Part shown: positions 463-54,648 of the stretch, in pieces
Layout of the letters: each line of letters begins with the position of its first letter
How positions within the stretch are numbered: position 1 is the first letter of the stretch
Source of the DNA: Actinomycetospora sp. NBRC 106375
GTDB taxonomy: Bacteria > Actinomycetota > Actinomycetes > Mycobacteriales > Pseudonocardiaceae
Length of the DNA: 64,000 nt
Direction of reading: 5' to 3'
Assembly (NCBI RefSeq): GCF_030269665.1
Contig: NZ_BSTS01000002.1
Coordinates: forward strand, 62,001 to 126,000
Position numbers and translations under genes: made by a program
The notes under the pieces: generated by a model
What the model saw: only the letters and a program-made list of their open reading frames with translations
The model's database searches: none
Told to the model about the DNA's origin: nothing

Positions 463-515
463 TGATCGAAGTACCGATACGGACGCTCAGTGTCTGCGAC
501 GGCACTTCGCTGACA
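463..515. repeat. 53-bp imperfect palindromic intergenic element, family A copy 1
   Basis: The element begins TGATCGAAGTACC and ends GGCACTTCGCTGACA. The outer CGAAGT/ACTTCG arms pair, and the centre GGACGCTCAGTGTC is itself nearly symmetric. It fills the space between the convergent MFS and aminotransferase genes. Two further 53-bp copies lie at 54513-54565 (inverted) and 54596-54648. It may act as a bidirectional terminator or be a non-autonomous repeat. Confidence 0.8.
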
Positions 516-519
516 CGTC

Positions 520-1641
520 TCAGAGCTTGCGCAGGCGCAGGAGGGCGTCGGCGAGGATCTCGTCGCGTTTGCAGCAGGCGAAGCGGACCTGGGTCTCGAC
601 GCCCTCGGGCGAGGCGTGGAAGACCTGGTTCGGCACCGCGGCGACGCGGACGCGTTCGGGCAGCGTGCGGCAGAACTCGAGCGAGTCGGTGACGCCCAGG
701 GGCGCGACGTCGGCGGTGACGAAGTAGGTCGCCTTCGAGTGGAACACCTCGAGGCCGAGCTCGCGCAGGCCGTCGGTGAGCAGGTCGCGCTTGCGGGCGA
801 GGTCGTCGCCGAGGTGCGCGAGGCGGTCGTCGGGCAGGTCGAGCCCGGTGGCGATGCCGTGCTGCAGCGGGGTGCCGGCGGCGAACGAGAACCACTGCTT
901 GACGCCGAGGACCTTCTCGACGAGGTCCGCGGGGCCTGTCGCCCAGCCGATCTTCCAGCCGGTCACCGAGAACGTCTTGCCGCCCGAGCCGACGGTGATC
1001 GTGCGCTCGAACATGCCCGGGAGGGTGGCGATCGGGACGTGCACGTTGTCGTCGAAGACGAGGTGCTCGTAGACCTCGTCGGCCAGCACGACCAGGTCGT
1101 TCTCGATCGCCACGTCCGCGATCGACTGCAGCTCCGCCCGCGAGAGCACCGCACCGGTCGGGTTGTGCGGCGTGTTCAGCACGATCATCCGCGTCCGCCC
1201 GGTCACCGCCGCGCGGAGGGCGTCGGCGTCCACGGCGTAGTCGGGCGCGTGGATGCGCACGGGCACGAGCGTCGCGCCGAGCAGCTGCGCGGTCGCCCCG
1301 TAGAGGTCGTAGAACGGCTCGAGCGCGATCACCTCGTCGCCCGGGCGCAGCAGCGCCGTCATCGCCGACGACAGCGCCTCCGACGCGCCCGAGCACACGA
1401 CGACCCCGCCGTCCGCGGCGACGTCGAGGCCGTACCAGCGGCGCTGGTGGTCGGCGATCGCGCGGCGCAGCGACGGGATGCCGACGGCCGGCGGGTACTG
1501 GTTCCAGCCCTTGTGCATGGCGGCGACGGCGGCGTCGACGACCTCGAGCGGCCCCGGGGTGTCCGGGAAGCCCTGACCGAGGTTGATCGCGTCGTTCTCG
1601 GCCGCCAGCCGGGACATCTCGCTGAAGATCGTCTCGGCCAT
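520..1641 (-). CDS. PLP-dependent class I/II aminotransferase (DapC / kynurenine aminotransferase-like)
   Basis: The 373-residue fold-type I aminotransferase starts at ATG 1641. Visible family motifs are NLGQGFPD near the N-terminus, NTPHNPTG, the DEVYEHLVFD aspartate motif that contacts the PLP pyridine, and SGGKTFSVTGWKIGW containing the Schiff-base lysine. The C-terminal VRFACCKRDE carries the carboxylate-binding arginine. It aligns by eye along its length with M. tuberculosis Rv0858c (annotated DapC, N-succinyldiaminopimelate aminotransferase) and with kynurenine/glutamine transaminases. Substrate choice between lysine biosynthesis and kynurenine or methionine-derived 2-oxo acids cannot be settled from sequence. 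The start lies 44 nt from the guaA stop on the same strand, so co-transcription with guaA is possible. Confidence 0.88.
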   Translation of the reverse strand: MAETIFSEMSRLAAENDAINLGQGFPDTPGPLEVVDAAVAAMHKGWNQYPPAVGIPSLRRAIADHQRRWYGLDVAADGGVVVCSGASEALSSAMTALLRPGDEVIALEPFYDLYGATAQLLGATLVPVRIHAPDYAVDADALRAAVTGRTRMIVLNTPHNPTGAVLSRAELQSIADVAIENDLVVLADEVYEHLVFDDNVHVPIATLPGMFERTITVGSGGKTFSVTGWKIGWATGPADLVEKVLGVKQWFSFAAGTPLQHGIATGLDLPDDRLAHLGDDLARKRDLLTDGLRELGLEVFHSKATYFVTADVAPLGVTDSLEFCRTLPERVRVAAVPNQVFHASPEGVETQVRFACCKRDEILADALLRLRKL

Positions 1642-1684
1642 CAGACCACTCCTCGGGTCGAGCTCCGGTGCGCTGCGTCTCCCA

Positions 1685-3256
1685 TTACTCCCACTCGATC
1701 GTCCCCGGCGGCTTGCTGGTCACGTCGAGGACGACGCGGTTGATCTCGGCGCACTCGTTGGTGATCCGCGTCGAGATGCGTTCGAGCACGTCGTAAGGAA
1801 GGCGCGTCCAGTCGGCGGTCATCGCGTCCTCGCTGGAGACCGGCCGCAGCACCACCGGGTGGCCGTAGGTGCGGCCGTCGCCCTGCACGCCCACCGAGCG
1901 GACGTCGGCGAGCAGCACCACCGGGCACTGCCAGATCGTCTGGTCCAGCCCGGCGGACGTCAGCTCCTCGCGCGCGATCGCGTCGGCACGGCGCAGGGTG
2001 GCCAGCCGGGAGGCGTCGACCGACCCGATGATCCGGATCGCGAGCCCGGGCCCCGGGAACGGCTGGCGGCGCACGATCGTCTCGGGCAGCCCGAGCTCGG
2101 CGCCGACCTTGCGCACCTCGTCCTTGAAGAGTGCGCGCAGCGGCTCGACCAGCGAGAACTGCAGGTCGTCGGGCAGACCGCCGACGTTGTGGTGCGACTT
2201 GATCGTCGCCGCACCCGACCCGCCGCCGGACTCGACGACGTCGGGGTAGAGCGTGCCCTGGACGAGGAAGTCCGCGCCCTTGCCCTCGCTGACCGACCGG
2301 GCCGCGCCCTCGAACGCGCGGATGAACTCGCGTCCGATGATCTTGCGTTTCTCCTCCGGGTCGACGACGCCGTCGAGCTCGCGCAGGAACGTCTCCTCGG
2401 CGTCGACGGTGACGAGGTCGACGCCGGTGGCGGCGACGAAGTCACGCTCGACCTGGGCCCGCTCGCCCTCGCGCAGCAGCCCGTGGTCGACGAAGACGCA
2501 GGTCAGACGCTCGCCGATGGCGCGCTGGACGAGGGCGGCGGCGACGGCGGAGTCGACGCCGCCGGAGAGCCCGCAGATCGCGCGCCCCTCGGGCCCGACC
2601 TGCGCGCGGACCGCGGCGACCGTCTCGTCGATGATGTTGGCGGTGTTCCAGTCGGCGTCGACGCCCGCGACGTCGCGCAGGAAGCGGCGCAGCACCTCCT
2701 GGCCGTGCGGCGAGTGCCCGACCTCCGGGTGGTACTGGACGCCGGCGAACCGGCGGTCGACGTCCTCGAACGCGGCCACCGGCGCGCCCGGCGTGGACGC
2801 GGTGACCGTGAAGCCCTCGGGTGCCTTCGTCACGCCGTCGCCGTGGCTCATCCACACGGGGTGGGCGTCGGGCAGCTCGGTGTGCAGACGCCCCGCCTCG
2901 CCCGCGACCGCGAGCTCGGTGCGCCCGTACTCGCGGTCGCCGGTGTGCGCGACCGTGCCGCCGAGGGCGCCGGCCATGAGCTGGAAGCCGTAGCAGATGC
3001 CGAACACCGGCACCCCGGCGTCGAACAGCGCCGGGTCGACGCTCGGCGCGCCGTCCTCGTACACGCTCGCCGGTCCGCCCGAGAGCACGATCGCGGCCGG
3101 GTCGCGGGCGAGCATCTCGTCGACCGGCATCGCGTGCGGCACGACCTCGGAGTACACCTGCGCCTCCCGCACCCGGCGGGCGATGAGCTGCGCGTACTGG
3201 GCGCCGTAGTCGACGACGAGGACGGGACGCTCCCCACTGGCGGTCACGGCTCCCAT
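1685..3256 (-). CDS. guaA: GMP synthase (glutamine-hydrolysing)
   Basis: The 523-residue enzyme converts XMP to GMP using glutamine and ATP, the last step of GMP synthesis. The N-terminal class I glutamine amidotransferase shows SGGPASVYE, the nucleophile-cysteine motif GICYGFQLM and the QYHPEVGHS histidine/glutamate pair. The ATP-pyrophosphatase domain has the P-loop [14 protein letters not shown], and the C-terminal dimerisation domain ends [29 protein letters not shown] sequence. ATG 3256 is chosen over an upstream in-frame start because the protein then opens [18 protein letters not shown], as in actinobacterial GuaA. It is divergent from a PadR regulator, with 70 bp between the two starts. 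The other guanine nucleotide genes, guaB and guaB3, lie about 17 kb away. Confidence 0.96.
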
Positions 3257-3291
3257 CGTGCCCGACGACGGGGGACGACCCGACCCTTGCC

Positions 3292-3316
3292 GTCGTAGTG
3301 TCGATGACACTAGTCT
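3292..3316. promoter_or_regulatory. candidate PadR operator between divergent guaA and padR promoters
   Basis: A perfect dyad TAGTGTC-GAT-GACACTA occupies 3296-3312. It overlaps TAGTCT (3311-3316), a possible -10 for the plus-strand regulator, and abuts TACGAC read on the minus strand (3292-3297), a possible -10 for guaA. PadR proteins usually autoregulate through short dyads at their own promoter. Assignment to this PadR is inference from position. Confidence 0.55.
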
Positions 3317-3326
3317 CTTCGACACC

Positions 3327-54089: not shown

Positions 54090-54109
54090 CCTCGACCTTG
54101 CTCGAGGTC
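54088..54109. terminator. hairpin between the Rieske and VOC genes
   Basis: GACCTCGA (54088-54095) and TCGAGGTC (54102-54109) pair perfectly around CCTTGC. It overlaps the Rieske stop codon and could be a weak terminator or an operator for the VOC gene. Confidence 0.5.
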
Positions 54110-54123
54110 GCACCCTCGTGGGT

Positions 54124-54501
54124 ATGAGCGTCGAGCTGAACCACACCATCGTCGAGTCCGCCGATCCGGACGGCGGCGCGGCCTTCCTCGCCGAGGTCCT
54201 CGGGCTGCCCGCGCCGTTTCACTTCGGGCCGTTCACGGTCGTCGAGGTCGCCCACGGGACGAGCCTCGACTTCATGACCGTCGCCGACCCGCACTCCCAG
54301 CACTACGCGTTCCTGGTCTCGGACGACGAGTTCCCGGTGATCGCGGACCGGCTGCGGGCCAAGGGCGTCCCCACCTTCGCCGACCCCGGCCACCGCCGGC
54401 CGGGCGAGAACACCAACGACGGTGGCCGCGGCGCCTACTTCGACTCCCCCGAGGGCCACAACCTCGAGATCCTCACCCGCCCCTACGGCAGCGGCGGCTG
54501 A
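54124..54501 (+). CDS. VOC (glyoxalase/bleomycin resistance/dioxygenase) family protein
   Basis: The 125-residue protein has the paired beta-alpha-beta-beta-beta modules of the vicinal-oxygen-chelate fold: MSVELNHTIVESADPDGGAAFLAEVLGLP, then SQHYAFLVSDDEFPVIADRLRAKGV and GRGAYFDSPEGHNLEILTRPY. Candidate metal ligands are His8 (LNHTIV), His in SQHYAFLV and Glu in HNLEILT, matching metal-dependent members. ATG 54124 is chosen; a GTG two codons upstream is possible. Enzymatic activity cannot be told; such proteins include glyoxalases, dioxygenases and antibiotic-binding proteins. Confidence 0.85.
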   Translation: MSVELNHTIVESADPDGGAAFLAEVLGLPAPFHFGPFTVVEVAHGTSLDFMTVADPHSQHYAFLVSDDEFPVIADRLRAKGVPTFADPGHRRPGENTNDGGRGAYFDSPEGHNLEILTRPYGSGG

Positions 54502-54512
54502 GCACGTGGACG

Positions 54513-54565
54513 TGTCAGCGAAGTGCCGTTGCGGACACTCAGCGTCTGGAAACGTACTTCGATCA
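54513..54565. repeat. 53-bp palindromic element, family A copy 2 (inverted)
   Basis: The element runs TGTCAGCGAAGTGCC to ACTTCGATCA, the reverse complement of the copy-1 layout. It is separated by 30 bp from the next copy, in opposite orientation, so together they form a large inverted repeat between the VOC gene and truA. Confidence 0.8.
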
Positions 54566-54595
54566 CTAGGGGTCGGTCCCGGGTCCGGGACGCGG

Positions 54596-54648
54596 TGATC
54601 GAAGTCCCGATACGGACACTCAGCGTCCGTGACGACACTTCGCTGACA
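54596..54648. repeat. 53-bp palindromic element, family A copy 3
   Basis: The element runs TGATCGAAGTCCC to ACTTCGCTGACA in the same orientation as the copy at 463-515, and ends 6 bp before the truA stop. It matches copy 1 at most positions, with changes mainly in the centre. Confidence 0.8.

Follow-up and report, generated by a model that had tools for sequence, protein, structure and literature searches.

The window analysed here is a stretch of 64,000 nucleotides (contig C2:62001-126000) from Actinomycetospora sp. NBRC 106375, a soil bacterium whose genome, referred to below as G000, comprises 6,792,970 bases in 104 contigs. It carries three copies of a 53-bp quasi-palindromic element, each composed of two arms, A and B, and belonging to a family that is dispersed over the genome and the genus. 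The three elements, with their common ends, the GGAC-CTCAG-GTC core and the 30-bp spacer of the inverted pair near 54.5 kb, were found just as a preliminary description of the window had placed them (Table 1). According to our own gene calls, they are flanked by the convergent gene pairs 449(+)/520(-) and 54501(+)/54655(-). The inverted pair (54513-54648, 136 bp), previously described as cruciform-prone, has a predicted DNA fold of -43.7 kcal/mol that is far stronger than those of shuffled sequences (z = -5.95; equalled by 0 of 200 shuffles). Seven tested arm 9-mers occur within the window only in the three elements, and no Rfam family was matched above its gathering score in the window or in three further loci.

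Table 1. Positions of the elements and their neighbouring genes in the window
Feature	Position	Strand	Remarks
Element 1, asymmetric class	463..515	+	arm A (TGATCGAAGTACCGATACGGAC) starts at 463; arm B (reverse complement TGTCAGCGAAGTGCC...) ends at 515
Element 2, asymmetric class, reversed	54513..54565	-	arm B towards stop of the + gene with 3' end at 54501
Spacer of inverted pair, 30 bp	54566..54595	n/a	between elements 2 and 3
Element 3, asymmetric class	54596..54648	+	arm B towards stop of the - gene with 3' end at 54655
MFS-like gene fragment	3..449	+	3' end adjoins element 1; weak Pfam MFS_1 match below cut-off
Class I/II aminotransferase	520..1641	-	4 bp between its stop codon and arm B of element 1
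Short gene without Pfam match	54124..54501	+	3' end 11 bp from element 2
tRNA pseudouridine synthase gene	54655..55467	-	3' end 6 bp from element 3

Copy number, build and placement

A search of G000 with the pattern CGAAGT-N22..42-ACTTCG returned 43 places, 41 of them the element with a core of exactly 43 bp and two of them chance matches; the reversed pattern, used as a control, returned none. Alignment of the 41 oriented copies (A2) gave the consensus TGATCGAAGTACCGATACGGACGCTSAGCGTCYGYGACGGCACTTCGCTGACA, where S and Y mark positions with two common bases, and a mean column identity of 94%, a figure to which the search pattern itself contributes (see below). Strong conservation ends at 53 bp, with a G preceding arm A and a weak bias over 1-4 bases on either side. 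The model R1, built from these copies, produced 118 strand-matches in G000, and 63 places were carried forward, comprising 45 asymmetric (A), 7 symmetric (S), 10 long (L, 70-73 bp) and one G004-type (X) element; four weak R1 places (C1:590676, C3:135481, C7:192 and C9:251055) were omitted. The earlier view of the three elements as copies of a defined unit is borne out, as the genome holds further copies, at 63 places at least, with a similarity above that of unrelated terminators. The arm 9-mer CGAAGTGCC was flagged outside elements in 6 of 65 cases in the fetched G000 loci, two of these six being elements missed by the filter, and single-arm, uptake-like tags were rejected because arm 9-mers are hardly found outside full elements.

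A second, non-palindromic dispersed repeat resembling CCCCTATCGGCGTGCTCCCC lies at 30304-30317 (+) of the window and also at L023:1480, L045:2789 and L073-L082; in the ten long G000 elements it accounts for some of the right half, and it is also present in nuoG of G012. At three of the long places (L074, L075 and L080), G007 has an ordinary element of the asymmetric class.

The unit is an inverted dimer, in which two near-palindromic arms of about 23 bp surround a short centre, so that the whole 53-55 bp quasi-palindrome forms one long hairpin. Among 31 symmetric elements from five species (A3), 93.4% of the cells were paired in the full hairpin and 15 of 25 pairs had changed on both sides, and pairing fell to 22-51% when the same alignment was slid by 1-3 columns. 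A set of 28 elements drawn from across the family, each from a different genome (A4), gave 96.6%, 19 of 25 pairs and 30-49% for the same measures; this set derives from 30 returned family loci, of which L271 and L273 were excluded as not being 55 long in register. Each arm can also fold as a palindrome of its own: in the 28-row set, 82.5% of the cells pair and change on both sides is seen at 14 of 20 pairs (slides 32-49%), although the folds of the two arms are not independent because the arms pair with each other. The rows of A3 and A4 were found with models, of which single-arm folds formed no part. Within G000 alone, compensatory change was seen in 0 of 13 pairs, six of them fixed by the search pattern.

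The placement of the element was assessed with a small gene finder of our own, based on codon usage. The 45 asymmetric copies lie between co-directional genes, arm B adjoining the end of the upstream gene (18), between convergent genes (18), between co-directional genes in reverse (3), in a divergent spacer (1) or in called genes (5); five of the ten long copies are co-directional and five convergent, and the seven symmetric ones are convergent in four cases, with one each in three other arrangements. The claimed placement between convergent genes, which is valid for all three window elements, therefore does not extend genome-wide. Arm B overlaps a stop codon or lies within 16 nt of one in 42 of the 50 intergenic asymmetric and long copies (5.4% under random intergenic placement), and only 1 of the 50 lies in a divergent spacer against 38.8% expected; this set excludes the five in-gene cases, and the background includes the two element-bearing window junctions. 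The same was observed in other Actinomycetospora records, where a gene end lies on the arm B side in 74 of 84 elements (80 loci), within 16 nt or overlapping in 62 of these 74. Four of the 84 are intragenic, five have no called gene on one side, and a divergent position was called for none. In four G000 cases of the asymmetric class, the gene on the opposite side uses the TGA of the terminal TGATCG as its stop codon (distance -3). That arm B lies a few nucleotides past stop codons suggests that the hairpin has some role in the transcript. Elements in E. coli that likewise lie near stop codons, the repetitive extragenic palindromic (REP) sequences, influence mRNA stability and translation.

Inverted pairs about 1.2 kb apart, with arm B outward, were noticed in five genomes (L034:2995-4271 in G000, G003:C1:109050-110314, G007:C29:89773-90988, G014:C310:1853-3098 and G012:C291:2074-3347). 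The gene enclosed by the G000 pair, which adjoins what we take to be a clpC-like gene, was considered as a candidate motor and judged a chance neighbour.

The A arm matched 92 stretches in a collection of named genomes, and the best 80 of the 92 all belong to Actinomycetospora (A. lemnae, A. chibensis, A. straminea and two metagenome genomes). A second model, R2, built from symmetric elements and able to count one element on both strands, matched all 18 genomes of our genus set (G000 and G001-G017), with 19-141 strand-matches each among at most 150 candidates scored per genome. Within the family, searched with stricter filters and at most 23 scored candidates per genome, it matched 64 of 249 genomes, in 22 of 46 genera. 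Many of these gave one to three weak matches; four family genera (g1, g16, g20 and g21) include a genome with nine or more strand-matches. In an order sample 47 of 298 genomes were matched, mostly weakly outside the family. The best units in other genera are mostly again 55 bp long, with another sequence. A locus from another family of the order (L284, G267) gave 14 R2 strand-matches, several covering only the 41-nt inner part, and perhaps represents an unrelated or distant palindrome family.

Shared places and species-wise versions

For G007 and G004, 20 of the highest-ranking R1 loci per genome were matched to G000 places by their flanks. An element place in G000 was found for 15 of the 20 G007 loci, each by both flanks, and for 12 of the 20 G004 loci, 11 of which were used (seven with both flanks; L153, with one weak flank, was dropped). 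The element class was the same at 9 of the 11 G000-G004 places. The likeness of orthologous G000 and G004 copies was 0.696 (n=11), compared with 0.698 for non-orthologous copies, 0.866 within G000 and 0.806 within G004. Orthologous copies thus resemble each other no more than unrelated copies do, and less than copies of the same genome do, which indicates concerted evolution. Furthermore, four G007 loci (L180-L183), one of which (L182) is the copy inside a THUMP-like gene, are identical across the whole 53-bp unit; for three of these loci, the orthologous copies in G000 (L021, L026 and L035) differ from one another. Copies within each genome therefore seem, from these sequence comparisons, to be kept alike in species-specific versions, at many places that are common to species.

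The place of element 1 was read by eye in 17 genomes. A clear element is present in seven (G000, G001, G003, G004, G007, G012 and G014), and G002 carries an element in a version of its own, which R2 likewise detected. Hairpin-like sequence occupies the place in G005, G008, G013 and G016 and a short ordinary hairpin in G006 and G010; no element was seen in G009 and G015, and nothing obvious in G017.

Some copies lie inside protein genes. In nuoG, the element is present in G000, with the frame open, and in G004, in different versions whose lengths of 120 and 108 both fit the frame, and it is absent from the 14 other genomes read (present in 2 of 16). In an EmbC-like gene (Pfam Arabinose_trans), G000 and G004 carry different versions at the same site; of seven other genomes read by eye, G001, G003, G007, G012 and G015 have other small palindromes there, and none was seen in G008 and G016. 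At one codon site of the gene with a THUMP-like domain, which was matched in 36 of 41 genomes and read in 23 loci, an insert is present in 11 of the 17 genus genomes read and missing from the other six, as well as from four family and two order outgroups; at all 23 loci, the length is divisible by three. By eye and alignment, the insert belongs to the element family in 8 of the 17, with arm B first in G001 and G004, arm A first in G000, G003, G007, G010 and G011, and a symmetric unit in G006; another palindrome stands there in G012, G015 and G016. When these in-gene elements were compared with 155 elements of nine genomes, including another G010 element near the gene (L166), the nearest relative came from the same genome in 5 of 7 testable cases (G000, G003, G004, G006 and G010), most clearly in G004 (40 vs 32) and G006 (48 vs 30). 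Target duplications were not readable in these three genes, the linkers of which evolve too fast.

Several further observations concern copies in coding sequence. A third type of palindrome, approximately CCAGCSTGG..CCACGCTGG followed by a tail similar to CGCCAGGAAA, occurs in other species at the same two coding sites (L221, L223 and L225 in the EmbC-like gene; L380, L383 and L386 in the THUMP-like gene). The THUMP-like gene of G000 (G000:C12:133959-135191, L381) contains one in-frame TGA and may be a broken copy. An AMP-ligase-like gene, named by eye (L038:2995-3715, on the 17-kb contig C43), carries two elements in frame.

Explanations weighed

An explanation has to accommodate the observed build, copy number, placement, conservation of places, compensatory change, homogenisation and in-frame copies, together with the lack of the Y1 transposase (PF01797) of the REP-associated tyrosine transposase (RAYT) type. 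This domain was found in 0 of the 18 genus genomes and in 5 of 14 control genomes, other transposases not being searched, and RAYT-driven spread was accordingly rejected as the present motor. We regard it as probable, although by no means certain, that the element constitutes a family similar to REP doublets forming hairpins (REPINs), which does without RAYT, is retained as 3'-end hairpins and is homogenised by DNA copying. Copies stay for long at fixed chromosomal places, chiefly just behind stop codons, where the transcript can form the long hairpin, most likely marking or protecting the 3' end; the hairpin may also aid termination or reduce read-through between convergent genes. Homogenisation would proceed by DNA copying of whole units between places, either by gene conversion or by replacement with new copies. 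Conversion between quasi-palindromes would explain the sharp edges, the identity of whole units and the occurrence of both orientations at one site, and re-insertion at old sites would explain them too. More tentatively, and with considerable doubt, we suggest a process that overwrites whole 53-55 bp units at fixed addresses, in either orientation and even in conserved genes, and that, in genomes lacking RAYT, would probably involve an unrecognised enzyme or palindrome-mediated gene conversion.

Several points weigh against this REPIN-like, copied family of 3'-end hairpins. The likeness among the 41 aligned G000 copies exists partly by construction, because the search pattern fixes 12 of the 53 bases, and the full-hairpin counts in A4 are biased towards the hairpin, because the rows are top-scoring matches to a model in which it is built in. 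The stronger hairpin strand of the asymmetric class runs from B to A in 32 of 45 G000, 20 of 21 G007 and 0 of 12 G004 copies; a consistent RNA strand preference was thus rejected, and folding lends no support to an RNA role in one direction. A scan of the two window places scored no intrinsic terminator with a U-tract at either. Between G000 and G007, which have a common version, the concerted signal is small, with likeness of 0.909 for orthologous copies (n=11, after four pairs with a long or symmetric partner were dropped) and 0.898 for non-orthologous copies, 0.932 within G000 and 0.917 within G007. At the THUMP-like site, G001 was tied and G007 was nearer to G012 by one point, although an own-genome row matches the G007 copy in 53/53 positions when flanking bases are left aside, and the element libraries compared are of unequal size. 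Finally, no conversion event was caught.

Plain terminators, grown alike within a genome by convergent selection on the same hairpin, would account for the position just behind stop codons, the avoidance of divergent spacers and the strength of the hairpins. We nevertheless hold them improbable, as near-identical 53-bp units stand at unrelated places (partly owing to the choice of pattern), identical whole units recur at several places, versions go by species and a U-tract is lacking at the two window places; in addition, some copies lie in frame inside genes, and where such a copy is translated, a terminator role cannot explain its likeness to the other copies. The last two observations also argue against the suggestion that the element is a standard transcription punctuation of the lineage, as does its number, since a genome of 6.8 Mb is expected to hold several thousand genes, of which 63 places could serve only a small fraction. 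The patchy presence at nuoG (2 of 16 genomes) and at the element 1 place (none in G015 and G009), the mixed occupancy of the THUMP-like codon site (8 of 17 element family, 3 other palindrome, 6 none, both orientations) and the existence of adjacent and inverted element pairs would suit a mobile element moved by a putative transposase that prefers old element sites, so that the current element of each species re-invades the same addresses. This appears unlikely: no transposase of the Y1/RAYT type, the only one searched, was found in the 18 genomes, no target duplication is readable and many places are old and common to species.

We would give little credence to the arms as operators of a DNA- or RNA-binding protein of drifting specificity with which its sites co-evolve. 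At 23 bp, each arm forms a palindrome such as dimers bind, and versions change together; copying, however, seems to take in the centre, which otherwise varies between copies, divergent promoter-bearing spacers are avoided and in-gene copies exist. Uptake sequences are reportedly tied to terminator hairpins in some bacteria. They form species dialects, with lineage-specific inverted repeats at gene ends, and number hundreds to thousands per genome. That such dialects have been built into terminators here and spread by biased recombination is scarcely credible, given arm 9-mers that hardly occur outside full elements and copies that number in the tens.

In the element, position and sequence are separable: many addresses are common to species, and the sequences standing there turn over together, including those at one codon of a conserved gene. 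With 18 genomes, this genus lends itself to distinguishing conversion from re-insertion and from co-evolution with a binding protein. If the overwriting process proves true, the gene-end hairpins of each species, together with the peptides encoded in frame, would be rewritten together.

Comparison with known palindromic repeats

The preliminary description had proposed an element like a REP or a miniature inverted-repeat transposable element (MITE). As for REPs and REPINs, which are dispersed palindromic units of 20-40 bp, often arranged as inverted dimers, the build, placement and dispersal agree, and the proposal stands to that extent; a REP in the strict RAYT sense is not supported, as no Y1 transposase was found in the 18 genomes. 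REPINs and RAYT-associated GTAG REPs are said to be inverted dimers of palindromic units that form one long hairpin and build within-genome populations. The element shares these three traits and differs in having neither Y1/RAYT nor GTAG, no GTAG tag being found at the unit end in the consensus of A2, A3 or A4. With regard to MITEs, which have the terminal inverted repeats of a resident transposon together with target duplications, the element ends in TGATCG.. and ..CTGACA, and target duplication is not readable at the coding sites. Compared with uptake-sequence terminators, single-arm copies are nearly absent and copies are far fewer. Rickettsia palindromic elements are palindromes kept in frame inside protein genes, a trait that the present element shares, although it is mostly intergenic, homogenised by species and of a different sequence.

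No paper on the element family was found among open-licence PMC papers. In the passages available to us, Di Nocera et al. (2013, PMC3733652), who partly treat the Rickettsia elements, describe REP families chiefly from proteobacteria and leave open how REPs without a transposase spread; no word beginning with Actinobacteria, Amycolatopsis, Streptomyces or Pseudonocardia occurs in the main text, the figures of which list more species. The CGTC-tagged REPs treated there are the closest known relatives in kind. According to these passages, they are mostly head-head dimers behind genes in convergent or unidirectional spacers, with some intragenic copies and no dedicated transposase, and have unpaired CGTC tags, stems of 8-9 bp, loops of 4-5 nt and CCA-like tails (PMC3733652). 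The element differs from them in arm stems of up to 10 bp, a 3-nt loop, the ends TGTC...GACA and a length of about 55 bp, and the YGTC beside its centre is no unpaired CGTC tag, as its GTC pairs with the GAC of the same arm in 24-28 of 28 rows. As far as these passages allow the comparison, and with Y1 as the only transposase searched here, the Actinomycetospora element resembles the CGTC REPs in its dimers of palindromic arms, its placement at gene ends and its intragenic copies.

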